DNA of 64,000 nucleotides from Chrysaora quinquecirrha (Eukaryota; Cnidaria; Scyphozoa; Semaeostomeae; Pelagiidae): assembly GCA_014526335.1 (NCBI GenBank), contig JACTAT010000052.1, positions 5,387,221-5,451,220 of the forward strand, in the 5' to 3' direction. Shown here piece after piece: positions 16,846 to 64,000 of this stretch (the stretch's first letter is position 1; each line of letters opens with the position of its first letter). Position numbers and translations under genes: made by a program. The notes beneath the pieces were generated by a model. That model searched no databases. It saw only the letters and a list, made by a program, of their open reading frames with translations, and had not been told where the DNA came from.

Positions 16846-17311
16846 GCGCCAGCGGCCATAATGTGGGGTGGACTGGCGAGCGTATCGAGCTTAATTCGGG
16901 GGTCTGGGGGATTGGCCCTAGGAAAAGTTTTTGGGACCACGCCCTTTAGAATGCCGGAAAACGCCCTTGGATCGAATGAAAGATAGAATCCTAATTTTGG
17001 CAGAGATGAAACAGTCAGTGAAAGGCAAAAACTTAACGAGAACGTAATTATAAACTCAAGGCACAACATAAACCTATGAAAATATTAGTCACTGCTTGAT
17101 TGTTTTCAGCTGCTTCTTTTTCCTTCTTCCAAAAGGCAACCTCTCTTGATTCAGAAAGGAGTGGGAATTCAAGTGAAGTCTTAAGAAACGAAAATGACTC
17201 ATCACCCACCCCCCACTATTTTCTCATCGGATTTGGGCGAATTACAAAATCGATCTTTGACAAAACTGGGGTGGACACGTCCCCCCCAGTCCACCCCGTG
17301 GCGCCGCCCAA
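16846..17311. mobile_element. hAT-like non-autonomous element, S2 copy, both ends damaged
   Basis: Homologous to 901-1374. The left end is fused to the middle of EF-hand exon 11 and the right end to the foldback element, so both flanking repeats are lost. Confidence 0.72.
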
Positions 17312-20300: not shown

Positions 20301-20626
20301 TGAAGGCTCAAAAAAATTTGAGCCTCTGCGGAGGAGCACATTTTTAACTGTGCATAACTTTGCATCCGTAGCTCAAATGCAAGGCATGTCTTATAATATT
20401 TTGCTGCATTTTTGACGCTCTTTCATATGGTATACTGAAATTTGAAATATCTTGACTTTGATTTTTTACTGACCGGCAACTACATACGTCATCGATCACG
20501 TGACTTCTGGCAATTACCAAAAAATGTCCCCAGTGCCAAAATATCCGCAATAGTGTAGTTAAGTAATAGCAACAATAAAATTTTCGGTTACCCAGCTTGC
20601 TAGATGGTTACAGTAATTTCCCTGTC
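17312..20626. mobile_element. foldback DNA transposon, copy 2, left end truncated
   Basis: Second copy of the element at 1999-5528 in S2. About 200 bases of the left TIR are lost in the deletion that also removed EF-hand exon 10. The right end (ccctgtc) is intact but is followed by different sequence (20,630-20,765) before the next MITE. Confidence 0.8.
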
Positions 20627-20765
20627 TATAAGACATGCTTTAGGTCACATGGTTTTGATTGACAGGTTATGTGATTTCGATTGATATATCACGTTGTTTT
20701 GATTGCGAGGTTACGTGGTGTTGGCATCCTCTGTGTCCCAGAAGTTTCTGACCCATTTGTACGAA

Positions 20766-21163
20766 TACACCCTTTTTTCTAAGGAACCACTTTATAAGGA
20801 ACCTACATGTAGAAGGCCAGAAAATTTAAAGAACTTATACTACTAAAGAGAAAAATACTAAGGAACTTTTCATTGTTGAATATTGTTATCACTGCAAATA
20901 ATCAAGAATTAGAAAGCCCGTTGCAGTCGAAAATCACATAAATTGTACTTTACGCATATATCAAATGTTTCTTTGAGTAGTTTCGAGCTTTGCTTACAGT
21001 TACATGCAAATGTCTCTGTACAGAAGTCATTAAACTGTATGTGCAGTTAAAATTAAAGAGCTATTAAGGAACTTTTGGAACTACAATCGTCTCGAAAGAC
21101 GTCAAAAAATAAGGAACTTTAAGAACTAGGCCTTGAGCTAGGTTCTTTATAAAAAAAGCGTGT
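20766..21163. mobile_element. TTATAAG MITE (GGAAC subfamily)
   Basis: Same skeleton as 12801-13198 (aacctacatgtagaagg near the left end, cttgagctagg near the right end). In S2 it is intact and separated from the foldback element by about 140 bases. Confidence 0.78.
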
Positions 21164-21799
21164 ATGCGAAAGATCAAATCTGCTACCATTGCGAGGTATT
21201 ACACGGTGCAATGGCCCCTAAAATGTTTGTATTTGTCTTGTGGGGGGTATCGGCGGATATCGGGTCGGGACCAACAAAGTTTTTCTGTTATTTGAGTTTC
21301 CACTGTACTAAAATGATTTGTGCGTCCTAGATTCCCTCGCAGTTGTGTTACAGGAATTACTGCAAGTTGCAGAATACATTGCCGCTGTACCATGTAGCCT
21401 ATAGCGATCGCGTAACGCCATAGCGAGAAATGTTGGAGGGGCAAAATTGCGGCCTTGTCTGATAGCAAAAGATAATCAACTATATTTTACCTGGTCATAG
21501 TGTTTAAATATGATTTTGAAATCTTCTTCACTCAGCGATTTTTGCTTCTGTCAAAGAATAAACATAACAAGACATATTTAAGTACCCAGGGGCAGCGGCG
21601 GAAATTGTGGGGGATTTGGGGGGCTCAAGCCCCCCTTCCCAACTCTTCCAATTTTGTCGGAAATTTTGCGATTTTTCTTTGAAAATGGCACAAAATAGAA
21701 CATTTTTCACTGACTGTCGGAAATTTAGGCCTCTTGGTCCCACCAGTCGAAATTTTGAATTTCAGCCACTGCTTAGGGGGAAGTTCGGCTCAGCCCCAG

Positions 21800-22148
21800 T
21801 ACTGAAAATTCCTTAACTGACAGCCAAATTTGAGTACTGAAAATTCCTTAGCGATTGCTTAACTTTTATACTTGTATCTTAAAAATAAACCTAGGGACAA
21901 GGGAATAAAGGGACATGAAGGTGTCAGAAGATGAATAGAAATGAATTTAAATTAAACAATTGACAAAAAGAGTATTGCTTGCTCGTTTTATACATGTAAA
22001 TGATCAGCTTCACAAGACTTCATCATTTTTAATAAAGTCAGATTCCTTTAATGGTCTCTGATCCAGTACTGGAATTCCTTACGTTTTTGCCTAGCCGAGT
22101 ACTAACTTCCTTATAAAGCACTTCCTTATAAATAAAAATGCGTGTATA
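21800..22148. mobile_element. TTATAAG MITE (TTCCTTA type)
   Basis: Repeated gtactgaaaattcctta phrases, with right end cttccttataaataaaaatgcgtgta. Only in S2; not seen at the equivalent S1 position. Confidence 0.55.
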
Positions 22149-22339
22149 TTCCTTTTCCTCGAGAAATTACCTGGGACAGCTTATTCATGGACGGCGTTGG
22201 AAGGATGTGCAGCTGAGTTGACTGTAGGCTTACTCCTTACTTTTAGGTCCCTAATTGCTGGGGGGATTTGAATAGGCGAAGGGTTGGGCTGGAACAGCGT
22301 TCAGATTAGTTGGAGACGCCAATTAGGCAACTAAGAGGA

Positions 22340-22562
22340 GGGGGTCATTTGGCATGACGGTTTGCGGTTTTTCGACATTTTGAGAGCGGTTTTACGGATT
22401 TTTACCTTCAAAAAGTACGGTTTTGCGGTTTTCCAATCTGCGATTTCGGTGCGGTTTTACGGCTTTAACAAAACAGATGTATGCTTGTACGGTTTTTGGC
22501 TTTTCGGTTTTACCGTTTTTTACCGTTTTTTACCCCCCTTCCCTTCCTATGACCCCCCTAAG
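22340..22562. repeat. CGGTTTT-rich degenerate repeat, S2 only
   Basis: Many cggttttacgg and gcggtttt phrases. At the S1 equivalent (about 6945) the flanks meet directly, so this is an insertion or expansion. Confidence 0.75.
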
Positions 22563-22564
22563 AG

Positions 22565-22640
22565 TATAGTGGAAAATCCTGACGAGATTGGAACCCAGGA
22601 CCTTCTCGATCCTATGTGTATCGAACACCTTGAAGAACGG
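22565..22640 (-). mobile_element. tRNA-derived SINE head, S2
   Basis: Duplicate of the element at 6960-7040, with some substitutions and a shorter flank. Confidence 0.45.
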
Positions 22641-23149
22641 AACCCATTGCCTTATTCCAAAATCTTTTAATATAATACCAACAATATATGCAATTAAATA
22701 CATCGCAAATGCCACTCCATTCTATGTCAACAAAACAGATAACCTGCCACACAGACAGTATTGCGGAGGAGCTCGAAAATTCGAAAAACTTGCTGTTTTG
22801 CTCCTCCGCAACACTGTATGTGACGCAGGCTGCAAAACGGACTTCCCTACCTGGTAAATGTTCGAGAGATAATTCTTTTCAACTGGAAGGAGTCTACAAT
22901 AATAATAATGTATTAGTCACAAAGCCAAAATATTGACGCAGAATCAGATCAGTAGTCGTAAAGTAGGTATGAGGAAGTCTCTTGCGGAACCTATTTATAG
23001 GGTAGGGCCTATATATTATGTGTATAAAAGTTTAATATAAGTGACCCTGAGCGATGGCAAGGTAACGCTAACGGGGCGACAACACTGCCTGCCAAATGTC
23101 GTCAGAGCAGCCCCCAAAATTTCGAAAAATATGACTCGTCTTCACTTTC

Positions 23150-23885
23150 TTAGCTAATTAACTTATTAACTTACTAACCAACTAACTTACTAATTCGAAA
23201 AATAACTAGCCAACTAGCAAACTAACTATTTAAGTAACTAACGAAAACGAACAAAATTAACTAGAACTATAAGTTATAAAGTATAAGTAACTAACTAAGG
23301 AACAAACTATCCAACTATCTAACTACACCTAACTAATGAACGAACCAATTAGCTAACTAATAGGCAGCCAACTAACTACCCAGGGTACCAAGTAACTAAC
23401 TAAGTAACAGACCATCTAGCTAACTAACTAATAACTAACTATCTAACTAACTAAGTAACCAATTAGCTAACAAATAAGCAACTTACTAATTAACTAAGTA
23501 ACTAATCATCTAACTAACTAACTAACTAAATAAATAACTAACTAACTAACTAAGTAACTAACTAACTAAATAAATAACTAACTAACTAACTACGTAACTA
23601 ACTAACTAGTTAACTGACTAATTAGCTAACTAACCAACTAAGTTACTGTTTAATTAAATAACTAACTAACCAACTAAACTAACTTACTAATAAAGCAAAT
23701 ACCTTATTAATTAACTAACAAACTAGCAAACTAACTAACTAACTAAATAACTAACTAAGATAGTAAGTGATTAATAAAGCAAGTGATAAACTAACTAAAT
23801 AACTAAATAACCAACTAACTAGTCAACTAATTATGTAGCAAACCCCCTAAAATTAACTAAAATTAACTTACTGACTAAGTAACAA
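23150..23885. repeat. TAAC/TAACTAAC array, S2
   Basis: Equivalent of 7575-8275, with local indels. Confidence 0.92.
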
Positions 23886-24169
23886 ACTTTTAAGCAACTT
23901 ACTTTTGCAGTTCTCTTATGCTTAGCTTCCCATCTTTGTTCTTATCATAAAGTTCTATCTAAAAGAGCAAACGTTCCTATTTCAAAATCATCAAAATCTA
24001 AATACAAAACAGACATTAAGGCTCATCCTTTCTATTTATTAATTCTATAACAAAAAGCGTAGAAAAACGCAAAATATTCGCTTCTTACGATTCCTTCGCT
24101 AAATTCAGCGATCTTCCTAGGATTGAGTCTTCTTGATTTTTTCTTGTTCAACAAATCAAAGCAAAAGGT

Positions 24170-24531
24170 GTACACGTTTTTTTATAAGCAAGTGGTTTAT
24201 AAAAAAGTAGTGCTCAACTTCTAAAAAACTTAAGAAAGTTCAATACTGGATTCTTGAAACTTAATAAAGTTCTGTTTCATACTTTCACTCCTAATGTTCT
24301 GTGTTTTATATTTGCTCTTCTGTTACGTCGCTCATCTTGCTATTAAACGAGCCTAATGATTATTTTCTTTGAAAAACGTTGTATTTGTGCAATGTATACA
24401 GTGCCTTAAACTGTATTCCAAAATTTTTTCTAAGAAAGTCACAAGAAAGTTTTGGCACTGAAAACATGAAATAGCTAAGAAAGTTTCAATACTGGCCCAA
24501 AAAAACTTTCTTATAAAAAAAACGTGTATTA
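24170..24531. mobile_element. TTATAAG MITE (GAAAG subfamily), S2, abutting exon 6 of the EF-hand pseudogene
   Basis: Starts gtacacgtttttttataag immediately next to the exon-6 sequence, where copy S1 has an AG acceptor and a TATAG microsatellite. Ends with an aaaaaacgtg terminus. Confidence 0.75.
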
Positions 24532-25704
24532 TTGTATAGTAATTGTAGTCGGAAAAATAGCATATCTGTGAAATGAGATGACATCATTCATGATGTCATA
24601 CTAGGCTTTTTCATCTCTATGGACTTTATTTATTGTAACTATGTAGTGGTTTTAAGCCAGTTGATTTAACTATTATAATAATATAGTAGCTCAGAATAGA
24701 AATCTAGAGTATTCTTATCATAGTAAAGGTTAGCAAGATAACCTATTCCTCAAAATTCTCACTGATAGGATTTTATTGTAAGTAGTGGTTAAGCCAGATG
24801 ATTTAATAAGATTACAAGGGTTTATACTTTCAGGGTGATTTAAGCGTTAAAAATTTCCTATCGAATAACTAGATTTGAAACTTTTAAGCCTTTTCTCTCA
24901 TTCAGAAAGAATGAGGAATAATTCCTGGTGGAACACCTTGCATTAGTAGAATGCTAACTGAAGATCATTACTGCGGAGCAGCGAGAAGCGTCTGCGTAGC
25001 AGAATAGTAGGTTAGAAAAAACTTAATTTTGTGTATGTTTATTTCGAGGCTATCGGTTTCTTTTCGTCTTCAAAAAGAGGCTATTCGATCCAACATACGT
25101 TTTTCTTTTCACCTGACATCATTTTCAATTCTAACCATACCTCACTGCAAACCTACTTGAAAACCCCCAAAACACTGGGACTCATTGGCTGGGTAATAGT
25201 ATTTCTATATTTTTTATGATAGTCTTAGACATGCCTATTGCTTTCAGCAATCTACAGAGGTCTATTTAGCGTAAGGCTGTGGCTAAACTCGAAGTCATGT
25301 CGTGCGCGACATTATATTCGGCATATCTTCCAGGTTGGCTAAACATGCGAGTGAAAAGTCGCGGAAAAAAATAATTTTTCTGTTGTCTCCCAGAAACATT
25401 TCCGTGTCTCCCACTGCAAATTTTGTCGCGCCCTACAATGTTTCCGAGGTGGCTGGACAGGGAAACAACGAGGGACATGTCACACGAGATATTGTCACGC
25501 GTGGCATGTCTACTGGTTTAGCCTAACCAACAAATAGAGTATAGAAGGGAAATTTCACACCAAGAACGTCAGAGTAAGTTTAGTGAAAAATATCAACATC
25601 AATATCAATGCAAACCTTAGTAAGAGGGGGGTCCTTATGAGAGCGGGGGTAGGTTGGAATTTTTTCTAAAAATTAATTAGCAGGGGGGCGGCAATTAGGC
25701 ACCT

Positions 25705-25800
25705 AAGAGAATGGATGCGGCATGCATAGTAAGTCTAAATTAGCTGAAAAAGCTAGAAACAACAGCCTACTCAAAACAAAGTAACAACAACAACAACAAC
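25705..25800 (+). mobile_element. tail remnant of the 5S-derived SINE in S2
   Basis: Only the end from gaatggatgcggcatgcatag on remains; the 5S head is missing compared with S1. Confidence 0.65.
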
Positions 25801-26149
25801 TTTCACGTTTTCGCATTTGTATAAATCTTCTCATCACGTATCACGAAAATACCCCTTCCCGCCTCCCCCTTTCCACCTTCTTATAAGTAACAATAGCTAC
25901 AAAATACCTTCATAAAGTCGATGCTTGTCAAATCAGAGCATTGTAATCTGAACTGCAGCAAGAAGTTTTCTTCTGTTGGCAGTATTCGTGATAGCTACAG
26001 AGAAAAGTTTCAGTCAAGCAGAATATGAACAAAAGATAGAGCTAGAAGCAGTAGAGTTCAGTTTGAAAAATTCCTACGGTATTCCTTAGTATTTTCACTT
26101 CATACCACATTAATTCCCTCACTCCTGTGATGTCTTGCTATTCCTTATT

Positions 26150-26850
26150 TATTAATCATTAGCATCTAATATTATCATAATTAGCATTCTTCAGCATCTT
26201 CATTTCGTGCTGTATTTACAGGTATCTTATCTTATACCGTATTCATAAGCATCTTCATTTCATACCTTATTCATTAGCATCTTCATTTCTTACTGTATTC
26301 ATTGGTATCTTATTCATTATGTACCATATTCATTAGCATCCTCATTTTATATCGCATTAGTTAGCATCTTCATTTCACACCATATTCATTAGCGTCTTCA
26401 TTTGATACCATATTCATTGGAATCTTCTTTTCATCTAATTTCATACTGCACTCATTGAAATCTTCATTTCATACCGCATTCGTTAAGCATCTTAATTTTG
26501 TACCGCATTATTTAGCATCTTGATTTTAAAATATATTCATTACCTTCTTCATTTCATACCTTGTTCATTAGTACTACTCTTATTTCATACCGTATTGATT
26601 AGCTTCTTCATTTCGTACCATATTCATTAGCATCTTCCTTTCTTACTGCATTCTTTAGCATCTTCATTTCTTACTGTATTCATAGGTATCTTACTTCGCA
26701 CCATATTGGTTAGCATCTTCATTTCATACCGTATTCATTAGCAAACACTCTTAAGCGTCTTCATTTTTCACTGTGTTCCTTAACAATTTAATTTCGTACC
26801 GTATTCATTGGCATCTTCATTTCATGCCGTATTCATCGTCATGTTCGAAG
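26150..26850. repeat. roughly 30-bp minisatellite, S2
   Basis: Equivalent of 11845-12555. A few similar units also occur at about 62750-62870 in AP-1 gamma. Confidence 0.9.
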
Positions 26851-27080
26851 TTCGAACTATGCAGTTACTGAATAAAAGTACATATATAGAAGATATGCAA
26901 CACTGTTTTTATCGTTCGTAGAAGCAATTTTTTGTGCGTAGTTGTAGAAAAATCAGTGAACACCATTAAGAACACTCAAGCTTCAAATTATTCAAAAGAT
27001 AAAAACATCGAGCCTCGGCAAAAATCAACTGGTTCTTATAGAAACGAGTTTATATGTAAATTGATGGTTTATTTAGCCAG

Positions 27081-27479
27081 TACACGCTTTTTTTTATAAA
27101 GAACCACTTTATAAGGAACCTACATTTAGAAGGCCCGAAAATTTAAAGAACTTATACTACTAAAGAGAAAATCATTACGGAACTTTTCAATGTTGAATGT
27201 TTTTATCACTGCAAATAATCAAGAATTAGAAAGCCGGTTCCATTCATTTGCAGTCAAAAATCGCATAAATTGTACGTTACACATGTATCAAATGTTTCTT
27301 TGAGTAGTCTCGAGCTTTGCTCACATGCAAATGTCTCTCTTTTATTGTTAGGACCACTGTATGTGCAGTTAAAATTAAGGAACTATAAAGGAACTTTTGG
27401 AACTACAATAAGAGGCCCAAAAATAAGGAACTTTTAGAACTAGGCCTTGAGGTAGGTTCCTTATAAAAAAATGCGTGTA
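27081..27479. mobile_element. TTATAAG MITE (GGAAC subfamily), S2
   Basis: Paralogous position to 12801-13198 in the duplicated segment. Confidence 0.8.
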
Positions 27480-28003
27480 TTAAATTTTGCCTTACAGCAT
27501 CGAGAAAGCATGAGCAAGACCTTAGAATGAAAACGAAAGTAGTTACCTACCTCGGCTAGTTCAATCCGTTTGTCATTATTAGCATCGTAGTTTTTCAGGA
27601 GTGTTTCTTTAAAGTCCTTTAGAGCTTTTACTTCATTGGCCTATAATTACATGATAACTAATGTTGAATATCTACAATCGTAGAGAAAATTGTTAGAAAC
27701 AAGTTTGAAAAGATACGCTCATATATCCTTTATTTCCCCCATCTAACCCCCTTCCCCAGTTCAATAGTGGATATTTTGTTTCAATCACTGCCGAAGTATG
27801 CGCTCCAACATGCGACGGACAATGTCCGAAAAAGTGGTCAACATTTAGTGGGGGAAGGGGGCAAAGACATAGACCCAAAATCAATATGACGGAGTATTTG
27901 TCTCAACATATTTTTTCCATGATTAATAGCAAATCTTGTTTTAAAAGCAGTAATGTAAAACGGATAACTTTAACTACTTTTTATTTTTTAATTGTACGTA
28001 TAA

Positions 28004-28039
<36 letters not shown>

Positions 28040-28041
28040 CT
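28004..28041. repeat. AAC microsatellite, S2 only
   Basis: About twelve aac units just downstream of pseudogene exon 2; S1 has two or three. Confidence 0.9.
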
Positions 28042-28361
28042 TGAACTGGTACTTACACCAGTTTGTTGGTCAGAAAGTAAATCCGCCAAGAACAAGTCGA
28101 TTTCACTTCCCTCGATGTAGCCATTATCTGAAAAAGGCGGCAAAAGATTATATAAATGTATTCTGCCACGTACTCTTGATATAATACTTCAGGACCCATT
28201 CGTTTCTTATAAAATCAGAAAATTTCAGATAAAATTACTCTTATAATTCATGTTAGCCTGTTCCTAAAGGTTTTTTTGTGGGACCTCTTTTAATTAGATT
28301 GTAGTACCAAAACAACCTTAATAGTTCCTAAGTTTAGCTGCATATTTAGTGAGATGACCAC

Positions 28362-28820
28362 ACTCATTTTTTATAAGAAACTATGCTCTGAGCCACATAC
28401 ATTAGGGTTTCTTAACTTTGAGCACACAATTGGTATAATAAAAGTTTCTTGCAGAGTTTCTTAACTTAAAAGTCGAAATTTCAAACATTTCGTGAGATAA
28501 GGGTTTAACATGAAGTATCATAGACTGATTACCTGAGTCGTAGTTTCGCTATTGAATTGAATACAGTTTGAGCGACCTCCTTTAAGTGCTAGCCTCGGTC
28601 TCATGAGCGATAACTAGTACTCAGGTAATCAGAATTTACCCCAAGTATGATGACTATTTTACGTAAACATTACAAAATGCACATCAAGAAAATAGAAAGC
28701 TGAACTTAAAGGCCGAAATAGCTTCTTAATTTTTTTTACATCTTAGACCATATAGAAGAGTTTCTTGATTTTTTAGAAAAAGGCATATAAAGTTTCTTAT
28801 AGCCGGTTTCTTATAAAAAT
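28362..28820. mobile_element. TTATAAG MITE (GAAAC subfamily), S2, nested hairpin MITE
   Basis: S2 equivalent of 14051-14576. The nested hairpin element is at about 28521-28633. Confidence 0.72.
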
Positions 28821-29729
28821 AGTACAAATAGCCAGTTCTAAAGAGTAAGAGAAACTTTTTAGCAGGGTTTTTTAACGTGCAGTTCTACACAAAATGTGCA
28901 GTTCTAAAAATTTTTGTGCAGTTCTAAAAGACAAATTGTGCAGTTGAGAAACTGGCATAAAACATCGTTCACATTATTTTGTATACTTGTTGCCCTATAC
29001 CATAATAATGAAAGGTAAATCTTTGCAAAATAGCAGGTCTCATAGTTAGATTTTGCATACTCCAATCACGAAATGACCACAGGAGCGATTCTAGACCCAT
29101 AAAATTTAAAAATTTTCTCGGAGAGCATTCACCTATTGGACTATAAGGATAGTGTGCAGTTCTAAATTTTCTTTAAAAACCCTGGTCAAGGAAGTTGTAA
29201 GTTGTAGAAAAATCAATTTTGATATAGGAAGACCATTAAGAACACTCGCGTCTCAAATTATTCAAAAAAATAAGATCTTCGAACCTCTGCAGCAATTATC
29301 TGGTTCTTATAAAATGTCAATGTAACCTACCATCCTTGTCATACTTTTTAAAACAAGCAAGAAATTCGTTTGAAGTAATCTGCTGTTGGCCATTCCATGT
29401 AGAAACGAAAGGCTGCAAGCTTTTCATGTTGCGTTTTTCTGCAGCCATTTTCAGAACTTAACAACTTTGATAAGACTAGAAATTGATCACACTAAATAAA
29501 CATGAATATTCTTTAAACCATTGAGATTTAAATTCAGGGTATTCTATTCTTAAGATTTCCCAGGGGGGCAGGGGCAGTGTCTCCACAAATGAATTTGCAA
29601 GTATCTGCTTTCTCTGATTTCAAGGCCTGTTAAATTCTGGCCCAAATAGAAAGTAAGAAATTTTCATATTTTGGCAAGTACAAAATTTCAGTCCAGACGG
29701 TCTTTCGTTGAAAATGTCTTTTCGACACA

Positions 29730-30131
29730 ATAAACGCTTTTTTATAAAAAACCACTTCATATAGGAACCTACATGTTGACCCAAGCCAAAAAATTTAAAG
29801 AACTTATACTACTAAAAATAAAATCGCTAAGGAACTTTTCAATTTTGAAAATTTATAACTCCAAACAATCAAGAATTTAAGCCGGTTCCATCTATAAATT
29901 TTTGGTTAAAATTCACATAAATTGTATGTTACACCTGTAACAAATGTTTCCTTGAATAGTTTCAAACTTTGCTCACCTACCTACAAGTGTTTCTTTATAA
30001 GAGACAGTCACTAAATATGCAGCTAAGCTAAAGGAAGCTTTGGGTACAGCAATTAGATTAAAAGGTCGAAAAATAATGGACTTTTGCAACTAGACCTTGA
30101 ACTAGGCTCTTTGCAAATTGAAAAGCGTGTA
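29730..30131. mobile_element. TTATAAG-family MITE, unit A
   Basis: Ends aaacgcttttttataaaaaacc and gcaaattgaaaagcgtgtacg, with the skeleton cctacatgttgacccaagcc. Copies at 33621-34024 and 37638-38040 come from the tandem array. Confidence 0.7.
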
Positions 30132-30163
30132 CGCTATCTTTGTTTCACTTAGGGGTTTTGGAA

Positions 30164-30206
30164 TCTGTCTACATCAAAACCAAAAGGCCGGTTTTGTGTA
30201 GACAGA
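30164..30206. other. 17-bp stem hairpin, unit A
   Basis: tctgtctaca-t-caaaacc pairs with ggttttg-t-gtagacaga around an 8-base loop. Conserved at 34055-34097 and 38071-38113. It lies just after the MITE and before the CCAAT-box cluster. Function unknown. Confidence 0.6.
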
Positions 30207-30245
30207 AAGAGTTCGTTTTCTCACTTGGACTCTTCAAATAATTCT

Positions 30246-30324
30246 ATTGGTCTTCCCGCTGTATCCGACCAGCTGATTGGTGTTCAAAACACAATGTCAA
30301 TTCAGCTTTTAGCTTTCTGATTGG
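30246..30324 (+). promoter_or_regulatory. cluster of three ATTGG (inverted CCAAT) boxes
   Basis: ATTGG at 30246, 30276 and 30320, the last two within gattggtg contexts. Present in all three units. They lie more than 500 bases past the peptide gene stop, so they would serve a plus-strand transcript if anything. A short ORF follows at 30424-30516 (30 aa, MPENDSAIHRN...), equivalent to 34315-34407 and, shortened by a stop, 38340-38426. No known protein is recognised in it. Confidence 0.3.
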
Positions 30325-30826
30325 TGCTTTTCGAGCCTCATTTGGGTACAAATTCCGCCTTATTCTATTGTTTCGGTCTGTTTCTGACGTTCATACTCTG
30401 AGGAGCGAAAAAGGCTTTTAAGTATGCCCGAAAATGATTCCGCTATTCATCGCAATCTTGAAGTTTTGTACAACTCAAAGACTATTTATTTGACCTCCCT
30501 AGAAAAATGGTTTTGAAGAGGACCTTTCTTGTAGAATTGCGCATAGTTACTACAAAAAATACGCCAAAGTTGCAGTATCAATTCTTGACTTCTATAATTG
30601 GGCCATTTGGTAGCCATTTTTAAGAAACTCAAATCTACTGGACCCAACTCTCGGGCCTCGATGGGTTTACCCCAAGGTAGCAAACCCTTGAAATTTCCAA
30701 TAAACAGATATAAGGAGGACAGGAAAAATAAAAACACTTTTTATCAGTATCTTTGCATCGTAATATCATAGAAAAAGATTAATTAGAATCTTGCGTAAGA
30801 TGCAAGTCCAAGTCTTGCTCAGTTCT

Positions 30827-31530
30827 TTACCATCTTCTTCGTCTTCCACTGCCGCCCCAAGGTGTGCATCGACGGCGACACAAACGGTTGCAGAAGCAAG
30901 GGGCAGGATCTGTTGGAAAAAATGTGTCAATTGAGTGATAACTAAAACCTCTAGGGTATACTTAGGGGACACCTTGGGAACCAGAGAGGACATTGCCCCG
31001 AAGTTTGGAATTTCATTTTCTTACCAAACATTGTACTTCGTCTCATGTTCAGAATAAACGGGAGGCTTCTTATTGATTAAATCTCTTGATTGTTGCTTAA
31101 TTCAGTTTCTTAATGTAAAACCAACATTAAATAAAGAATGAGAGGGGTTTTGCGGACAACCCAAAAAAACAGATTATATAGATCATGGCAACCTTTTGCG
31201 GCCCCTGAATCCTCGTTAAGATCAGCAAAATCTAATCCATCATCAGGTTCTTCTTCATTATTTGCATCTGAAATTAAAATTGAAAAATTTACGAAAAGGC
31301 AATAAAGTACGAAAATGGGAACATACAAAACGTTGCACACATAAGCTGGTATGTAGTGTGTTTTGCTCTTATAAGAGGCAATGAGGCAATGAAAATATAA
31401 CTGTTGGATGATTTGTGGAGCTGGAAATTTTCCACAGAACAAGCCCTGCCTAGGGTTAGCCACAGGTTAACTTACCGCAAAATGCAAATGCGAACACAAG
31501 AACCAGAGAGAAAAGCAAAATGGTTTTCAT
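30827..31530 (-). CDS. secreted cationic cysteine-rich peptide precursor, paralogue A (antimicrobial-peptide-like)
   Basis: Three exons: 31530-31476, 31267-31193, 30909-30827; both introns are GT-AG in phase 1, giving 70 aa. Residues 1-18 (MKTILLFSLVLVFAFAFC) form a signal peptide, cleavable after C18 or A20. Residues 19-43 are an acidic propeptide with ten Asp/Glu and one Lys. Residues 44-70 are the mature part: DPAP, then four Cys as CxC-x3-C-x3-C including LCRRRC, then a Trp-Gly-rich stretch and a C-terminal GRRRRW; eight Arg against one Asp. Signal, anionic pro-region and cationic two-disulphide peptide match the general layout of antimicrobial-peptide precursors, with the pro-region likely balancing the mature charge. 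An excitatory or hormone-like disulphide peptide is the main alternative. I do not recognise the family. A possible AATAAA poly(A) signal on the minus strand lies near 30,483-30,488. Upstream sits a threefold 144-bp repeat. The activity is inferred, not shown. Confidence 0.72.
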
Positions 31531-31612
31531 TTTCTCAAGCTTTCTTGCTGATCAACCTTGTCTGTGACAAACTGAAATGTTTGGTTGAGGTTGAGGAATG
31601 AGCAAAGCATTT

Positions 31613-32045
31613 AATTGGGATGTTTTTCCGCTGGTACAAAAAGCCTTATTGATGAGCGGAAGAATTTGCTACAAAGGACATTATTTTCATTTCAAAATCG
31701 AGCGATTTGATTGGACGTTATTACTGCATTCTTATTAATACAAAGTAATACAACAGAATTGGGATGTTTTTCCGCTGGTACAAAAAAGCCTTATTGATGA
31801 GCGGAAGAATTTGCTACAAAGGAGATTATTTTCATTTCAAAATCGAGCGATTTGATTGGACGTTATTATTGCATTCTTATTAATACAAAGTAATACAACA
31901 GAATTGGGATGTTTTTCCGCTGGTACAAAAAAGCCTCATTGATGAGCGGAAGAATTCGCTACAAAGGACACTATGTTGTTGCGTTTCGTTTCAAAATCGA
32001 GCGATTTGATTGGACGTTATTACTGTACTGCATTCTAATGTAATA
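31613..32045 (-). promoter_or_regulatory. threefold 144-bp repeat upstream of peptide gene A
   Basis: Units start at about 31613, 31757 and 31902, each beginning aattgggatgtttttccgc. They lie 83-515 bases upstream of the peptide-A start codon. Unit B has one copy (from about 35977) and unit C none. A role as promoter or enhancer is inferred from position only. Confidence 0.45.
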
Positions 32046-32095
32046 CAAAGAAATTTATACAGCAGGATGTGTTTGGCTATCCTATCTTGAAAACA

Positions 32096-32265
32096 TGGAA
32101 TGTGGAATACTGGAATGGAATACTGGAATAAAATGGAATACTGGAATACTGGAATACTGGAATGATATTCCAGTCAATGCTGGAATGTTTCCAGTGATAA
32201 CTGGAATGGTATTCCAGTATTCCAGCATTGGAATACATTCCAGTATTCCAGACATATTCCAGACA
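32096..32265. repeat. GGAATACT/ATTCCAGT palindromic cluster, unit A
   Basis: Many direct and inverted copies of tactggaat within about 170 bases; the left half is in one orientation and the right half in the other, so a large hairpin can form. Duplicated at 36161-36330. Confidence 0.85.
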
Positions 32266-32933
32266 CTTGATAATTATATCCAAACAAGGGTGTCTTGTTT
32301 CCAAACAGTTGAAGATATTTCAATGAATATGAATATCTCAAATTTCACAAACGTCCATTGAAATCAGCTTGATTGAAGCGAAACAGGCGAAGAACTCTTG
32401 ACCCAAGATTCTAAGGACCACCCAGTGGCACAATTTACTAATTTCCAAATCATTAATGCATTGATGATAAGTCTATGCGGTATCAAAATACACCTTTCCA
32501 GCAGATCATGGATGCATCGCACATTCAAGTGATAAGACTGTTTCTCGCCATGAGATTGATTTTCACTGAGTTTTGCGTTTGAAACTGAGTAACGAAAAAT
32601 GAGGGGACACTATAGTCACCACTTATCATGACAAGCCTTTGATATTTAGTTGGGCAACGTTTCCGGAGAGATCCGTCTCCCATCATCGGGCAATGAGAAA
32701 TGTGGTTTCTTGGCTATTTAGTGCAAAGGTCGGATCGAATGGTGTGAAATTAACCGGACCTGCGAGGAAGCTCGGAATTTTTTGGCGCTCAGTTTCTAAA
32801 ATTTTGTGGCGCCAAAATTGCGGTCAGTGCAGCTTTTGATGTTATTCAAACAGATTTCTGGGATTGAGTAAGATACTTGATTGATACAAGGAGTTGATAG
32901 AACTGAGTGAATGCTTTCTTTAACAAGTCTGTT

Positions 32934-33219
32934 TTAACATGTCCTGAAGGCTAGTTTTCCATCATTCTCTACCTCTGTAGTGAACTTCAATTTCACATGT
33001 AGGGAATTGATGTGCTTATAGAAATCTTCCATCTTGTCCCTCTTCATAATCATGAACACATCATCTACATATCTCTCCTATACTTTTGGTTTCTCAATGT
33101 ATGAATCAAGGGCAAGCGATTCTTTTCTTGCATAAAGATCTCAGCAACTACAGAAGAGGCAGGTTTTCCCAGTGCTACTCCATTTGTTTGTGAGATAAAC
33201 TTCCCATTGAATTTGAACA
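32934..33219 (-). mobile_element. Penelope-like element reverse transcriptase fragment, unit A (broken)
   Basis: The minus strand reads FKFNGKFISQTNGVALGKPA, then SSVVAEIFMQ, and, after a frameshift, RYVDDVFMIMKRDKM and a segment with HINSLHVKLKFTTEVENDGK. The YVDD catalytic motif and the GVALGKPASSVVAEIF block match the RT core of Penelope-like elements. Only about 95 codons remain, with a stop before RYVDD and a 1-base frameshift. No endonuclease or complete RT is present. Confidence 0.75.
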
Positions 33220-33226
33220 TTCCCCT

Positions 33227-33390
33227 CGTTCCACAGAGTATCAACATTCCCCGATTCCGCAAATAGCAACAACTCTCGTTCCACAGAATAGCAACTTTCC
33301 CCGATTCCACAGAATCATTCCTGTCGTTCCACAGAATAGCAACATTCTCAGGTTCCGCAGAGTAGAAACATCTCTTGGTTCTACAGGATA
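33227..33390. repeat. ttccacagaatagcaacatt-type tandem repeat, unit A
   Basis: About seven degenerate copies of a roughly 24-bp unit with a gttcca-caga core. A shorter version is at about 37293-37400 in unit B. Confidence 0.7.
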
Positions 33391-33620
33391 CCGGAGGCTA
33401 GCGTGTTTTTACCGCGAGTAGTACATTTGGATTGTATTGACAACTTTCCTGGGTTTACTTTCTGCAACATGGCGAAAATTCGAGCATTTCATCCGACCCA
33501 GTTGCTGATTTCAAGGCCGGTTAAATTCTGGCCCAAATAGAAAGTAAGAAATTTTCCTATTTTGGCAAGTACAAAATTTCAGTCCAGACGGTCTTTCGTT
33601 GAAAATGTCTTTTCGACACA

Positions 33621-34024
33621 ATAAACGCTTTTTTATAAAAAACACTTCATATAGAAACCTACATGTTGACCCAAGCCAAAATAATTTAAAGAACTTATAC
33701 TACTAAATATAAAATCGCTAAGGAACTTTTCAATTTTGAAAATTTATATCTCCAAACAATCAAGAATTTAAGCCGGTTCCATCTATGAATTTTTGGTTAA
33801 AATTCACCTAAATTGTATGTTACACCTGTAACAAATGTTTCCTTGAATAGTTTCAAACTTTGCTCACCTACCTACAAGTGTTTCTTTATAAGAGACAGTC
33901 ACTAAATATGCAGCTAAGCTAAAGGAAGCTTTGGGTACAGCAATTAGATTAAAAAGGTCGAAAAATAATGGACTTTTGCAACTAGACCTTGAACTAGGCT
34001 CTTTGCAAATTGAAAAGCGTGTAC
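33621..34024. mobile_element. TTATAAG-family MITE, unit B
   Basis: Equivalent of 29730-30131 in unit B. Confidence 0.7.
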
Positions 34025-34717
34025 GCTATCTTTGTTTCACTTAGGGTTTTGGAATCTGTCTACATCAAAACCAAAAGGCCGGTTTTGTGTAGACAGAAAG
34101 AGTTCGTTTTCTCACTTGGACTCTTCAAATAATTCTATTGGTCTTCCCGCTGTATCCGACCAGCTGATTGGTGTTCAAAACACAATGTCAATTCAGCTTT
34201 TAGCTTTCTGATTGGTGCTTTTCGAGCCTCATTTGGGTACAAATTCCGCCTTATTCTATTGTTTCGGTCTGTTTCTGACGTTCATACTCTGAGTAGCGAA
34301 AAAAGCTTTTAAGTATGCCCGAAAATGATTCCGCTATTCATCGCAATTTTGAAGTTTTGTACAACTCAAAGACTATTTATTTGGCCTCCCTAGAAAAATG
34401 GTTTTGAAGAGGACCTTTCTTGTAAAATTGCGCATAGTTACTACAAAAAATACGCCAAAGTTGCAGTATCAATTCTTGACTTCTATAATTGGGCCATTTG
34501 GTAGCCATTTTTAAGAAACTCAAATCTACTGGACCCAACTCTCGGGCCTCGATGGGTTTACCCCAAGGTAGCAAACTCTTGAAATTTCCAATAAACAGAC
34601 ATAAGGAGGACAGGAAAAGTAAAAACACATTTGATCAGTATCTTTGCATCGTAATATCATAGAAAAAGATTAATTATAATCATGCGTAAGATACAAGTCC
34701 AAGTCTTGCTCAGTTCT

Positions 34718-35894
34718 TTACCATCTTCTTCGTCTTCCTCTGCCGCCCCAAGATGTGCATCGACGGCGACACAAACTGTTGCAGACACAAGGGGCAGGAT
34801 CTGTTGGAAAAAATGTGTCAATTGAGTGATAACTAAAAGCTCTAGGGTATAATTAAGGGACACCTTGGGAACCAGAGAGGACATTGCCCTGAAGTTTGGA
34901 ATTTCATTTTCTTACCAAACTAGTGTACTTCGTCTCATGTTCAGAATAGACGGGAGGCTTCTTATTGATTAAATCTCTTGATTGTTGCTTAATTCAGTTT
35001 CTTAATGTAAAACCAACATTAAATAAAGAATGAGAGGGGTTTTGCGGACAACCCCAAAAAAAGCAGATTATATAGATCATGGCAACCTTTTGCGGCCTCT
35101 GAATCCTCGTTAAGATCAGCAAAATCTAATCCACCATCAGGTTCTTCTTCATTATTTGCATCTGAAATTAAAATTGAAAAATTTACGAAAAGGCAATAAA
35201 GTACGAAAATGGGAACATACAAAACGTTGTACACATAAGCTGGTACGCGCAGTTAATAACCGCTTATAAGCAACCAAGATGTAGAAGGCCTAAAAGCTTA
35301 AGGAACGTATAGTACCACAGGAAAAAACCTAAACTTTTTAAATTTTTGATAATTTATTTCACTGCGAGCAATCGAGGATTGATCAACATAGAAGCTATTT
35401 CCATTCATTTATCGTCAAAACTCGCATATCAACGGAGTGTTTCTCGTTAAATGAGGCATTTCATTGACGGGTTTCCATTTAACTTTCAATACAAAGTCTC
35501 TAATGGTAAAAATATCAGCATGGAGAATGTTTCCAGTCATTTTATGTGCAATGTTAGATTTTGCTGTTTTTCTAGTCTCTATACTATTCTTAGGACAAAA
35601 AGATACAGTTAATATTAAGCAACTACTAAGAAACTATTGCTACTAAAAGGTGGCCATAAAAGGTCTAAAAATAAGCAACTTTTTGAACTAGGGCCGAGTA
35701 AAGTTGCTTGTAAAAAAACTGGGTGTTGTGTGTTTTGCTCTTATAAAAGGCAATGAAAATATAACTGTTGGATGATTTGTGGAGCTGGAAATTTTCCACA
35801 GAACAAGCCCTGCCTAGAGTTAGACACAGGTTAACTTACCGCAAAATGCAAATGCGAACACAAGAACCAGAGACAAAAGCAAAATGGTTTTCAT
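34718..35894 (-). CDS. secreted cationic cysteine-rich peptide precursor, paralogue B
   Basis: Exons 35894-35840, 35161-35087 and 34800-34718, with lengths (55, 75, 83 nt) and phases identical to paralogue A. The product is 70 aa. The signal peptide differs at residue 7 (Phe to Leu). The pro-region has an Asp-to-Gly change in the PDDG segment and Glu at the third-from-last position in place of Gly. The mature peptide keeps all four Cys, but the first loop Phe is Val, the Arg before LCRRRC is Ser, the Pro after the last Cys is Ser, and a Ser in the tail is Arg. These four replacements come with no synonymous change relative to paralogue C. Intron 1 is 678 bp because a palindromic MITE (about 35245-35727) is inserted; paralogue A lacks it. 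Same functional inference and uncertainty as A. Confidence 0.72.
35245..35727. mobile_element. TTATAAG MITE (GCAAC subfamily) in intron 1 of peptide gene B
   Basis: Ends gtacgcgcagttaataaccg and gttgcttgtaaaaaaactg. GCAAC/GTTGC recurs about four times on a skeleton shared with the GGAAC subfamily (aagatgtagaaggcc). Absent from unit A, so it inserted after A separated from B/C. Confidence 0.75.
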
Positions 35895-36160
35895 TTTCTC
35901 AAGCTTTCTTGCTGATCAAACTTGTCTGTGACAAACTGAAATGTTTGGTTGAGGTTGAGGAATGAGCAAAGCATTTAATTGGGACGTTTTTCCGCTGGTA
36001 CAAAAAGCCTTATTGATGAGCGGAAGAATTCGCTACAAAGGACATTATTTTCATTTCAAAATCGAGCGATTTGATTGGACGTTATTACTGTACTGCATTC
36101 TAATGTAATACAAAGAAATTTATACAGCAGGATGTGTTTGGCTATCCTATCTTGAAAACA

Positions 36161-36330
36161 TGGAATGTGGAATACTGGAATGGAATACTGGAATAAAATG
36201 GAATACTGGAATACTGGAATACTGGAATGATATTCCAGTCAATGCTGGAATGTTTCCAGTGATAACTGGAATGGTCTTCCAGTATTCCAGCATTGGAATA
36301 CATTCCAGTATTCCAGACATATTCCAGACA
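36161..36330. repeat. GGAATACT/ATTCCAGT palindromic cluster, unit B
   Basis: Near-identical copy of the cluster at 32096-32265. Confidence 0.85.
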
Positions 36331-37008
36331 CTTGATAATTATATCCAAACAAGGGTGTCTTGTTTCCAAACAGTTGAAGATATTTCAATGAATATGAATA
36401 TCTCAAATTTCACAAACGTCCATTGAAATCAGCTTGATTGAAGCGAAACAGGCGAAGAACTCTTGACCCAAGATTCTAAGGACCACCCAGTGGCACAATT
36501 TACTAATTTCCAAATCATTAATGCATTGATGATAAGTCTATGCGGTATCAAAATACACCTTTCCAGCAGATCATGGATGCATCGCACATTCAAGTGATAA
36601 GACTGTTTCTCGCCATGAGATTGATTTTCACTGAGTTTTGCGTTTGAAACTGAGTAACGAAAAATGAGGGGACACTATAGTCACCACTTATCATGACAAG
36701 CCTTTGATATTTAGTTGGGCAACGTTTCCGGAGAGATCCGTCTCCCATCATCGGGCAATGAGAAATGTGGTTTCTTGGCTATTTAGTGCAAAGGTCGGAT
36801 CGAATGGTGTGAAATTAACCGGACCTGCGAGGAAGCTCGGAATTTTTTGGCGCTCAGTTTCTAAAATTTTGTGGCGCCAAAATTGCGGTCAGTGCAGCTT
36901 TTGATGTTATTCAAACAGATTTCTGGGATTGAGTAAGATACTTGATTGATACAAGGAGTTGATAGAACCGAGTGAATGCTTTCTTTAACAAGTCTGTTTT
37001 AACATGTC

Positions 37009-37286
37009 CTGAAGGCTAGTTTTCCATCATTCTCTACCTCTGTAGTGAACTTCAATTTCACATGTAGGGAATTGATGTGCTTATAGAAATCTTCCATCTT
37101 GTCCCTCTTCATAATCATGAACACATCATCTACATATCTCTCCTATACTTTTGGTTTCTCAATGTATGAATCAAGGGCAAGCGATTCTTTTTCTTGCATA
37201 AAGATCTCAGCAACTACAGAAGAGGCAGGTTTTCCCAGTGCTACTCCATCTGTTTGTGAGATAAACTTCCCATTGAATTTGAACAT
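37009..37286 (-). mobile_element. Penelope-like element reverse transcriptase fragment, unit B (broken)
   Basis: Duplicate of the fragment at 32934-33219. Here the frame is continuous from FKFNGKF through YIEKPKV, followed by one TAG where Trp is expected and then ERYVDDVF. It ends in a stop after LAFRTC. A remnant amplified by the tandem duplication, not by transposition. Confidence 0.75.
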
Positions 37287-37292
37287 TCCCCT

Positions 37293-37400
37293 CGTTCCAC
37301 AGAGTATCAACATTCCCCGATTCCACAGAATCATTCCTGTCGTTCCACAGAATAGCAACATTCTCAGGTTCCGCAGAGTAGAAACATCTCTTGGTTCTAC
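37293..37400. repeat. ttccacagaatagcaacatt-type tandem repeat, unit B
   Basis: Shortened copy of the array at 33227-33390, missing about two units. Confidence 0.7.
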
Positions 37401-37637
37401 AGGATACCGGAGGCTAGCGTGTTTTTACCGCGAGAAGTACATTTGGATTGTATTGACAACTTTCCTGGGTTTACTTTCTGCAACATGGCGAAAATTCGAG
37501 CATTTCATCCGACCCAGTTGCTGATTTCAAGGCCGGTTAAATTCTGGCCCAAATAGAAAGTAAGAAATTTTCCTATTTTGGCAAGTACAAAATTTCAGTC
37601 CAGACGGTCTTTCGTTGAAAATGTCTTTTCGACACAA

Positions 37638-38040
37638 TAAACGCTTTTTTATAAAAAACACTTCATATAGAAACCTACATGTTGACCCAAGCCAAAAAAT
37701 TTAAAGAACTTATACTACTAAAAATAAAATCGCTAAGGAACTTTTCAATTTTGAAAATTTATAACTCCAAACAATCAAGAATTTAAGCCGGTTCCATCTA
37801 TGAATTTTTGGTTAAAATTCACATAAATTGTATGTTACACCTGTAACAAATGTTTCCTTGAATAGTTTCAAACTTTGCTCACCTACCTACAAGTGTTTCT
37901 TTATAAGAGACAGTCACTAAATATGCAGCTAAGCTAAAGGAAGCTTTGGGTACAGCAATTAGATTAAAAAGGTCGAAAAATAATGGACTTTTGCAACTAG
38001 ACCTTGAACTAGGCTCTTTGCAAATTGAAAAGCGTGTACG
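37638..38040. mobile_element. TTATAAG-family MITE, unit C
   Basis: Equivalent of 29730-30131 in unit C. Confidence 0.7.
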
Positions 38041-38742
38041 CTATCTTTGTTTCACTTAGGGGTTTTGGAATCTGTCTACATCAAAACCAAAAGGCCGGTT
38101 TTGTGTAGACAGAAAAAGTTCGTTTTCTCACTTGGACTCTTCAAATAATTCTATTGGTCTTCCCGCTGTATCCAACCAGCTGATTGGTGTTCAAAACACA
38201 ATGTCAATTCAGCTTTTAGTTCTTTCTGATTGGTGCTTTTCGAGCCGCATTTGGGTACAAATTCCGCCTTATTCTATTGTTTCGGTCTGTTTCTGACGTT
38301 CATACTCTGAGGAGTGTCAGACGAAAAAAGCTTTTAAGTATGCTCGAAAATGATTCCGCTATTCATCGCAATTTTGAAGTTTTGTACAACTCAAAGACTA
38401 TTTATTTGACCTCCCTAGAAAAATAGTTTTGAAGAGGACCTTTCTTGTAAAATTGCGCATAGTTACTACAAAAAATACGCCAAAGTTGCAGTATCAATTC
38501 TTGACTTCTATAATTGGGCCATTTGGTAGCCATTTTTAAGACCCTCAAATCGACTGGACCCAACTGTCGGGCCTCAATGGGTTTACCCCAAGGTAGCAAA
38601 CCCTTGAAATTTCTAATAAACAGACATAAGGAGGACAGGAAAAGTAAAAACACATTTGATCAGTATCTTTGCATCGTAATATCATAGAAAAAGATTAATT
38701 ATAATCATGCGTAAGATACAAGTCCAAGTCTTGCTCGGTTCT

Positions 38743-39913
38743 TTACCATCTTCTTCGTCTTCCACTGCCGCCCCAAGGTGTGCATCGACGGCGACACAAA
38801 CGGTTGCAGAAACAAGGGGCAGGATCTGTTGGAAAAAATGTGTCAATTGAGTGATAACTAAAAGCTCTAGGGTATAATTAGGGGACACCTTGGGAACCAG
38901 AGAGGACATTGCCCCGAAGTTTGGAATTTCATTTTCTTACCAAACTAGTGTATTTCGTCTCATGTTCAGAATAGACGGGAGGCTTCTTATTGATTAAATC
39001 TCTTGATTGTTGCTTAATTCAGTTTCTTAATGTAAAACCAACATTAAATAAAGAATGAGAAAGGTTTTGCGGACAACCCAAAAAAAACAGATTATATAGA
39101 TCATGGCAACCTTTTGCGGCCTCTGAATCCTCGTTAAGATCAGCAAAATCTAACCCATCATTAGGTTCTTCTTCATTATTTGCATCTGAAATTAAAATTG
39201 AAAAATTTACGAAAAGGCAATAAAGTACGAAACTGGGAACATACAAAACGTTGTACACATAAGCTGGTACGCGCAGTTAATAACCGCTTATAAGCAACCA
39301 AGATGTAGAAGGCCTAAAAGCTTAAGGAACGTATAGTACCACAGGAAAAAAACCTAAACTTTTTAAATTTTTGATAATTTATTTCACTGCAAGCAATCGA
39401 GGATTGATCAACATAGAACCTATTTCCATTCATTTATCGTCAAAACTCGCATATCAATGGAGTGTTTTTCGTTACGTGAGGCATTTCATTGAGGGGTTTC
39501 CATACGATGTCTCTAATGGTAACAATATCAGCATGGAGAAATGTTTCCAGTCATTTTATGTGCAATGTTAGATTTTGCTGTTTTTCTAGTCTCTATACTA
39601 TTCTTAGGGCAAAAAGATACAGTTAATATTAAGCAACTACTAAGGAACTATTGCTACTAAAAGGTGGCCACAAAAGGTCTAAAAATGAGCAACTTTTTGA
39701 ACTAGGGCCGAGCGAAGTTGCTTGTAAAAAAACTGCGTGTTGTGTGTTTTGCTTTGCTCTTATAAGAGGCAATGAAAATATAACTGTTGGATGATTTGTG
39801 GAGCTGGAAATTTTCCACAGAACAAGCCCTGCCTAGAGTTAGACACAGGTTAACTTACCGCAAAATGCAAATGCGAACACAAGAACCAGAGACAAAAGCA
39901 AAATGGTTTTCAT
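38743..39913 (-). CDS. secreted cationic cysteine-rich peptide precursor, paralogue C
   Basis: Exons 39913-39859, 39185-39111 and 38825-38743; 70 aa, same phases as A and B. The mature peptide is identical in protein sequence to A, with one synonymous Cys codon change. The pro-region has PNDG in place of PDDG. Intron 1 carries the same MITE as paralogue B (about 39269-39740), so B and C share a more recent ancestor than either does with A. Homology to units A and B stops at about 39,986, some 70 bases upstream of the ATG. This gene therefore lacks the upstream repeat and distal flank of the other two and may be expressed differently. Confidence 0.7.
39269..39740. mobile_element. TTATAAG MITE (GCAAC subfamily) in intron 1 of peptide gene C
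   Basis: Same insertion as in paralogue B, inherited through the tandem duplication. Confidence 0.75.
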
Positions 39914-39986
39914 TTTCTCAAGCTTTCTTGCTGATCAACCTTGTCTGTGACAAACTGAAATGTTTGGTTGAGGTCGAGGAATGAGC

Positions 39987-41425: not shown

Positions 41426-64000
<22,575 letters not shown>

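Follow-up and report, generated by a model that had tools for sequence, protein, structure and literature searches.

A candidate family of about one hundred short-exon genes for secreted, Arg-Trp-tailed cationic peptides in the genome of Chrysaora quinquecirrha

A 64,000-nucleotide (nt) stretch of the genome of the scyphozoan Chrysaora quinquecirrha (assembly GCA_014526335.1, contig JACTAT010000052.1, positions 5,387,221 to 5,451,220; the whole stretch is called the window below) contains three tandem genes for a short, Arg-rich, Cys-containing precursor. Comparison with the rest of the genome indicates that these genes are members of a coding gene family, and that the family comprises roughly one hundred genes, far beyond three. 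That secreted cationic peptides of this kind form a real family is virtually certain. Judged from sequence features, its best reading is a lineage-restricted, diversifying cationic defence-peptide family in a medusozoan genome; host defence as the main role of the family is considered fairly probable, with much room for doubt. The features that appear constant are an acidic pro-exon, a last exon starting with D or DP, and a C-terminal tail of the form W...G-R4/5-W-stop, whereas Cys residues appear to be optional. The tail had not been singled out as a constant element in an earlier sequence-only reading of the window.

Gene models and coding constraint

All three genes lie on the minus strand and consist of three exons of 55, 75 and 83 nt, with both introns in phase 1 and a precursor of 70 residues; the models of the sequence-only reading were reproduced when rebuilt. 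In copy 1, exon 1 (39859-39913) holds the start codon and the signal peptide MKTILLLSLVLVFAFAFC, exon 2 (39111-39185) the acidic pro-region DANNEEEPNDGLDFADLNEDSEAAK, and exon 3 (38743-38825) DPAPCFCNRLCRRRCTPWGGSGRRRRW and the stop. The corresponding exons are located at 35840-35894, 35087-35161 and 34718-34800 in copy 2, where the mature region with its stop is DPAPCVCNSLCRRRCTSWGGRGRRRRW, and at 31476-31530, 31193-31267 and 30827-30909 in copy 3, which again ends in DPAPCFCNRLCRRRCTPWGGSGRRRRW. Each gene contains four Cys in the arrangement CxC-x3-C-x3-C, the strings CRRRC and GRRRRW, and a C-terminal end that reads WGGSGRRRRW or WGGRGRRRRW. The leader is hydrophobic (best 12-residue hydropathy of 3.1-3.2), and it is on hydropathy only that the proposed signal peptide was borne out; the acidic pro-region (net charge -9) and the basic mature part (net charge +7) were found as described. 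Donor 1 is GTAAGT and the acceptors end in TTTAATTTCAG and TTTTTTCCAACAG, while donor 2 is weak (AAAAG/GTTGCC), a donor of the AAG/GTT type being seen again in paralogues. A rule-based scan, which asked for a signal exon of hydrophobic character followed by a GT[AG]AG donor, for phase-1 acceptors and for a basic last exon with four Cys, returned exactly the three models from the window, and 100 dinucleotide shuffles yielded not one; its thresholds had been fixed only after the models had been seen.

The three window copies taken together say little about constraint. They sit in tandem units that are about 97% identical, and because of this the Cys residues that they share carry little weight; the statement that all Cys are kept in all copies is true, but as evidence it is nearly empty. 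Eight nonsynonymous and two synonymous variable sites were counted in 213 nt (about 162 nonsynonymous and 48 synonymous sites), which is near the neutral expectation, and intron 2 and the 3' flank are conserved to no lesser degree than the coding parts. The conservation of the Cys residues and of the genes as such therefore rests on diverged paralogues elsewhere in the genome. A search of 328 Mb in 740 contigs, among which the window belongs to contig 399, with the precursor gave 11 exon matches at an expectation value (E) of 0.001 or below, six in the window and five elsewhere (contigs 152, 399 and 134). The last exons found outside the window read DPSPGNCFCNSLCRRRCIPWGWHGRRRRW, DPAMYCVCNPGCRRRCNPWGWSGRRRRW (at two loci), DPKPGCACGMPCRRRCTNWGAPFSGRRRRW and DPKPKPGDCACADFCRRRCTPWYGTWGGRRRRW, and the invariant columns of the six aligned peptides are D, P, the four Cys, RRR, W and GRRRRW. 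Three of these loci (L009, L010 and L011) match the window genes in their three exons, intron phases and splice sites, and their first exons resemble exon 1 of copy 1. Over the three exons, copy 1 and L009 differ by 14.5 nonsynonymous changes in 163.3 sites and 11.5 synonymous changes in 46.7 sites, a ratio of the two proportions (pN/pS) of 0.36; L010 and L011 differ by no nonsynonymous and four synonymous changes, and more distant pairs of paralogues give ratios of 0.62 and 0.81. Length differences between paralogues are whole codons. The claim that the exons are coding, spliced and too short for ordinary calling of open reading frames is upheld; the paralogues keep both exons and splice sites.

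These results bear on the possibility that no gene family exists and that the frames arose by chance or were carried by repeats. The absence of selection among the window copies alone, in a locus full of duplications, would be in line with it. The clean outcome in all 100 shuffles, the whole-codon length differences, the interchangeable stop codons described below and the splice sites retained in paralogues speak against it, and its probability is regarded as negligible.

Size of the family and its C-terminal tail

The tail was used to estimate the size of the family. Genome-wide, 100 places match a DNA pattern for GRRRRW-stop, exon 3 of copy 1 among them, against 15 for a reversed control; for GRRRRRW-stop the counts are 16 and one. 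At L027 and L143 the Arg patterns let through AGT or AGC (Ser), which they also admit, and TGG, allowed by the stop code TRR, stands in one of the 16 five-Arg matches. The 116 places of both patterns, chance matches included, are distributed over 42 contigs, and 80 of them fall into groups with gaps below 100 kb; the array in the window belongs to a group of six places on contig 399 (5359706-5425963). Ninety-six of the 100 four-Arg places were examined (C224:2234656, C324:4106426, C389:2640088 and C399:5366908 were left out), and six of these had no usable acceptor under a lenient rule, which gives 90 models of last exons. About 15 of the 100 places are expected by chance, so that some of the 90 models, including some of the Cys-free ones, are non-members. 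In this set, 76 models start with D, 59 with DP, 57 contain CRRRC, and all but one (89 of 90) have a Trp at most seven residues before the tail; the net charge has a median of +7 and a range from -1 to +18. The stops of the 70 distinct exon-3 DNAs that start with D are TGA in 29, TAA in 28 and TAG in 13, and all four Gly codons are used. Because stop and Gly codons interchange in this way, the tail is seen to be kept as amino acids, not as a DNA repeat.

A check that is independent of the tail leads to the same element. CRRRC-x2-W occurs at 67 places (23 in the control), and 52 of these reach G-R4/5-W-stop within 150 nt, 42 with four Arg and 10 with five; the remaining 15 fall short of the 23 matches in the control. 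Out of the 25 places without GRRRRW-stop, 14 were read, the other 11 being outside this reading: 10 have five-Arg tails (at L130 the extracted piece ended early and the Trp and stop were taken from the matches of the GRRRRRW-stop pattern), L139 has lost its tail, and L140, L141 and L143 are seemingly unrelated. Upstream of the last exons, candidate acidic phase-1 middle exons, called without a shuffle control, were found at L009-L012, L022, L024, L028 (where the donors are weak), L041, L047, L049 and L050, and a signal exon of the MK... type at L009, L010, L011, L021 and L049.

In all 10 of the five-Arg tails just mentioned, which are the Arg-run-tailed, family-like places read without GRRRRW, Gly stands directly before the Arg run. 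This would be expected if the genes were precursors of amidated peptide hormones, in which G-RRRR is a classical signal for amidation and convertase cleavage and the activity resides in the variable core, amidated at its C-terminus. In scyphozoan precursors of cyclic neuropeptides, as far as the available part of the source describes them, Gly followed by Arg marks the C-termini of peptides (PMC6909153). However, amidation explains only the Gly; the conserved single Trp between the Arg run and the stop has no role in such processing, and the internal CRRRC would also be cut. The same partial source describes several peptide copies in each annotated neuropeptide precursor, whereas a window precursor holds one (PMC6909153). 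The cyclic FRamide neuropeptides of Scyphozoa and Cubozoa (CXXXMCWFRamide) resemble the window peptides in being short, Cys-bridged and secreted from precursors that, in Scyphozoa, have GR sites, but they differ in having two Cys, several copies per precursor and a WFRamide end (PMC6909153, available part). The hormone-precursor explanation is thus considered unlikely.

Variable core

The part of the last exon between the start and the tail is variable. The 90 models have four Cys in 57 cases, none in 18, two in 10, eight in four and one in a single case. The last four Cys are spaced 5,2,3 in 24 models, 1,3,3 (the type of the window genes) in 10 and 5,3,3 in seven, and others occur too. The sequence-only reading is incomplete in that the window genes account for just three members among roughly one hundred and the family is not defined by its four-Cys motif, 18 of the 90 models being Cys-free. 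At least seven Cys-free models start with DP (L024, L026, L046, L049, L050, L079 and L100), and one of them, L049, has both a signal and an acidic exon. At L073, L115, L116 and L117 a far longer core with eight Cys (about 77 residues) precedes an unchanged tail. Some members contain repeated Trp-Arg blocks, e.g., L029 and L030 (...WTSGRRRRWLISGRRRRW). A putative amphipathic stretch in L102 has a moment of 0.88, equalled by three of 500 shuffles; amphipathy is weaker in L028, L101 and L103 (37, 24 and 54 of 500 shuffles) and absent in L118 and L119 (113 and 472 of 500).

Venom components of stinging cells should also be considered here. Venoms are typically secreted, Cys-stabilised and hypervariable multigene families. 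The Cys-free members, however, have the same kinds of exons and the same tail, as seen at L049, the constant part is the tail and not a fold, and a Protein Data Bank (PDB) search related the sequence to none of the solved proteins. A venom function of the family is accordingly regarded as improbable.

Some close pairs of paralogues differ in the core mostly by nonsynonymous changes: 18 nonsynonymous to one synonymous in L034-L075, 14.5 to 2.5 in L077-L078 and 8.5 to 0.5 in L110-L113. These pair counts, which are not a formal test, suggest diversification in some pairs or clusters only.

Comparison of the precursors with databases and literature gave no relatives. No Pfam family was found at E of 1 or below for two window precursors, a profile search that the sequence-only reading had proposed, and the PDB search gave no match to the window precursor, which agrees with its statement that the Cys spacing is not assignable to a named family. 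In a set of 5.8 billion proteins none shares three five-residue words with the precursor; this negative is weak, since the nearest AP1G1 listed from that set is 75% identical, so that close species seem to be missing from it, and Arg-rich words may be skipped. Exact-string searches of the literature for the core string and for CXCX3CX3C returned nothing. The family is new as far as Pfam, the PDB, the protein set and the literature show. The starfish PpCrAMP and the coral SCRiP were considered as relatives and dropped, the host being medusozoan. In Cys-stabilised-helix peptides of the apamin and endothelin type the spacing is CxC-x7-CxxxC. The proposed likeness to them holds for the CxC...CxxxC that they have in common with the window peptides, but the middle loop of the latter is three residues long, not seven, the spacing varies in the family, and no search shows homology.

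A possible role in host defence and its alternatives

In the proposed defence function, each exon has its own role. Exon 1 provides a hydrophobic leader that would direct the precursor into the secretory path. Exon 2 is the acidic pro-segment, which may mask the cationic part and would be cut off near the residues that precede DP (K before DP in the window genes, RR before DP in L012). Exon 3 is basic and usually consists of DP, the variable core, a W, a few residues and G-R4/5-W at the C-terminus; the core is mostly of the four-Cys type with CRRRC, and elsewhere Cys-free and possibly amphipathic, or of the eight-Cys type. In members with Cys, two disulfides would fold a small rigid core. The arginines of the freed peptide might bind negatively charged bacterial surfaces, and the flanking tryptophans might insert. 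New copies would come from tandem duplication, and the core would diversify among paralogues, like that of other antimicrobial peptide (AMP) families. An acidic pro-part joined to a cationic mature part, as in the window precursors, is what is looked for in cationic host-defence peptides. The favoured function also has parallels in cnidarians. For the Hydra AMPs, the available part of the source describes a mostly charge-bipartite build, complex Cys patterns, clustered paralogues and restriction to the genus (PMC10945409). The arminins, periculins and hydramacin, together with the candidate HyCWR, resemble the present family in being secreted, mostly charge-bipartite, Cys-patterned, clustered and lineage-restricted; this likeness is one of description, not sequence. 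HyCWR has six Cys, and a fixed C-terminal W-G-R4/5-W goes unmentioned in that part of the source (PMC10945409). Aurelin, a peptide of 40 residues from Aurelia aurita, is likewise a Cys-stabilised jellyfish peptide, but it has six Cys, unlike the four of the window peptides, and lacks the Arg-Trp tail (sequence in PMC8719109).

Several results weigh against this reading. The near-invariance of a C-terminal tail is atypical of AMP families, and such a tail suits a recognition or signalling element at least equally well. The ratio pN/pS of the core, pooled over 41 pairs that were chosen by shared words, length and divergence limits, is 0.68, and certain pairs differ by silent changes only. The three near-identical window copies, taken alone, give no selection signal. 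For many of the 30 longer loci, the upstream 1.5 kb revealed neither a signal exon nor an acidic one. An AlphaFold model of the exon-3 reading frame, which has intron-derived residues at its start, has a predicted local distance difference test (pLDDT) score of 53 and no secondary structure.

The main rival reading concerns the tail. The active part may be the Trp/Arg-run/Trp C-terminus itself, like the heptapeptide WSRRRWL, in which case the family would consist of signals for metamorphosis or regional growth and the core would be a carrier or a specificity element. W...G-R4/5-W-stop throughout the family resembles WSRRRWL, which derives from the CL390 protein and, according to the available text, induces strobilation in Aurelia sp. 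1 (PMC5744923). A CL390-like protein from the Red Sea (accession KM587721) is described in part of its source as carrying a signal peptide and numerous arginine repeats, with an extra C-terminal Trp in place of WSRRRWL (PMC4334923). The window genes have the C-terminal Trp in common with it and, like it, are without the heptapeptide. L029, L030 and other members also carry Trp-Arg blocks in repeated form, and the host lineage is medusozoan. On the other hand, a hybrid query for CL390 gave two candidates, neither at E of 10 or below, and the primer CL390_R2 has no match in the genome at up to two mismatches, as is expected where species differ. Pairs of RXR-type half-sites are lacking in the array, and the window has one against 1.45 expected. 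Roughly one hundred diverse members are many for one hormone, and a loose W-[RK]3-W is prone to chance, with four other six-frame places in the window. Moreover, WSRRRWL is said in the available text to be inactive in other Aurelia lines (PMC5744923). A developmental signal of the CL390 type is kept as a serious, though rather unlikely, alternative to host defence.

The end formed by Trp, Gly, four or five Arg and Trp in a medusozoan family may nevertheless be seen as a striking parallel to CL390. The strobila-specific, secreted proteins CL390, CL390-like and CL631 of Aurelia share with the family, as far as their partly available descriptions go, the signal peptide, the arginine repeats, the Trp beside an Arg run and the medusozoan host; CL390 and CL631 are likened to it by description, not sequence, and about one hundred genes are concerned here. 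In the sources, each available in part, CL390 is described as not having been found in other cnidarians (PMC5744923, PMC4334923, PMC10433978, PMC6441219). CL390 and CL631, both signal-peptide proteins with arginine repeats, were undetected at the level of expression in germ-free animals, and germ-free Aurelia also fail to strobilate normally (PMC10433978, in the part available). It is conceivable, although doubtful, that CL390 belongs to a large superfamily of secreted peptides in Medusozoa, all with a Trp-Arg tail but with cores that are interchangeable (of the four-Cys, eight-Cys, amphipathic or Cys-free type). This superfamily would have arisen as an antimicrobial arsenal, and metamorphosis signalling would have been recruited from it. 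If such a superfamily exists, then the missing expression of CL390 and its companion genes in germ-free Aurelia, as reported in that part of the source, would fit it (PMC10433978). However, the failure of strobilation alone may explain the missing CL390 expression.

A route to CL390-like loci through a DNA pattern for WxRRRW-L/F was abandoned. The pattern has 133 matches against six in the control, but it was swamped by a dispersed repeat, and among six inspected loci of the 20 extracted only L054 and L055 read WSRRRW. By eye, most of the matches listed (100 of the 133) belong to a dispersed sequence with TGGCGTAGCCGACGGTGGTT, present on many contigs. L054 (contig 36, 77123-77217) is a 15-bp minisatellite that reads (WSRRR)n beside a run of N, and its match to residues 1-6 of the CL390 heptapeptide is probably due to chance.

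Genomic neighbourhood of the array

Repeat comparison places copy 1 in a tandem unit at 37521-39986, copy 2 at 33505-37520 and copy 3 at 29614-33504. An insertion of about 480 nt occupies intron 1 of copy 2 (35246-35723) and of copy 1 (about 39270-39765) and is absent from copy 3; its ends resemble imperfect inverted repeats by eye. Upstream of its start codon, the unit of copy 1 shares only 73 nt with the other units, which gives copy 1 an upstream region different from that of copies 2 and 3. TTTCAG stands just before this shared leader and could be an acceptor for an upstream or trans-spliced exon. AATAAA occurs on the minus strand 336 nt past the stop of each copy (38401-38406, 34376-34381 and 30485-30490 for copies 1 to 3); these are candidate poly-A signals and may be chance occurrences. 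Elsewhere on contig 399, the loci L017 and L019, beside L010 and L011, both carry one Cys-rich reading frame (...CIGCKKYCDCEKGVCVSQC...), which suggests a duplicated block, about 720 kb apart.

The array is adjoined by a segmental duplication of about 15 kb (about 24-15457 and 16345-29612). By eye, both duplicates contain an EF-hand-like reading frame on the minus strand, at about 13282 and 27563. A Pfam EF-hand at 474-662 is marginally below the cut-off (25.2 against 25.4 bits), and no EF-hand was found by Pfam at 1654-1905. On the other side, AP1G1 (gamma-adaptin) is represented by plus-strand exons at 41423-63054, from about residue 156 of the protein. In a tree of these joined exons and 31 proteins selected from 120 listed matches, the window groups with the proteins P0001 and P0002; together they join Hydra and six further proteins in a fully supported group of ten that stands apart from Anthozoa and Bilateria, which makes the genome medusozoan and probably non-hydrozoan. 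The first 155 or so residues were not found at convincing E-values in the 41 kb upstream (1-41422), in contrast to the easily detected later exons; an AP1G1 intron of great length may contain the peptide array, or AP1G1 may be incomplete here. One AP1G1 exon is doubled (51890-52012 and 54307-54429) by a tandem duplication of 1.6 kb with about 95.5% identity, and about 34 tandem copies of a 26-bp unit (50030-50898) lie within the gene.

Significance

The analysis exposes about one hundred short-exon genes of the jellyfish lineage, of the kind that is missed by ordinary calling of open reading frames. If they serve defence, then a near-constant Arg-Trp tail on many different cores is an unusual design for a defence arsenal. 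Because this tail resembles the strobilation-triggering peptide, the origin of CL390 and the failure to find its homologues outside Aurelia become testable by looking for G-R4/5-W-stop exons in medusozoan genomes, instead of for similarity to CL390.

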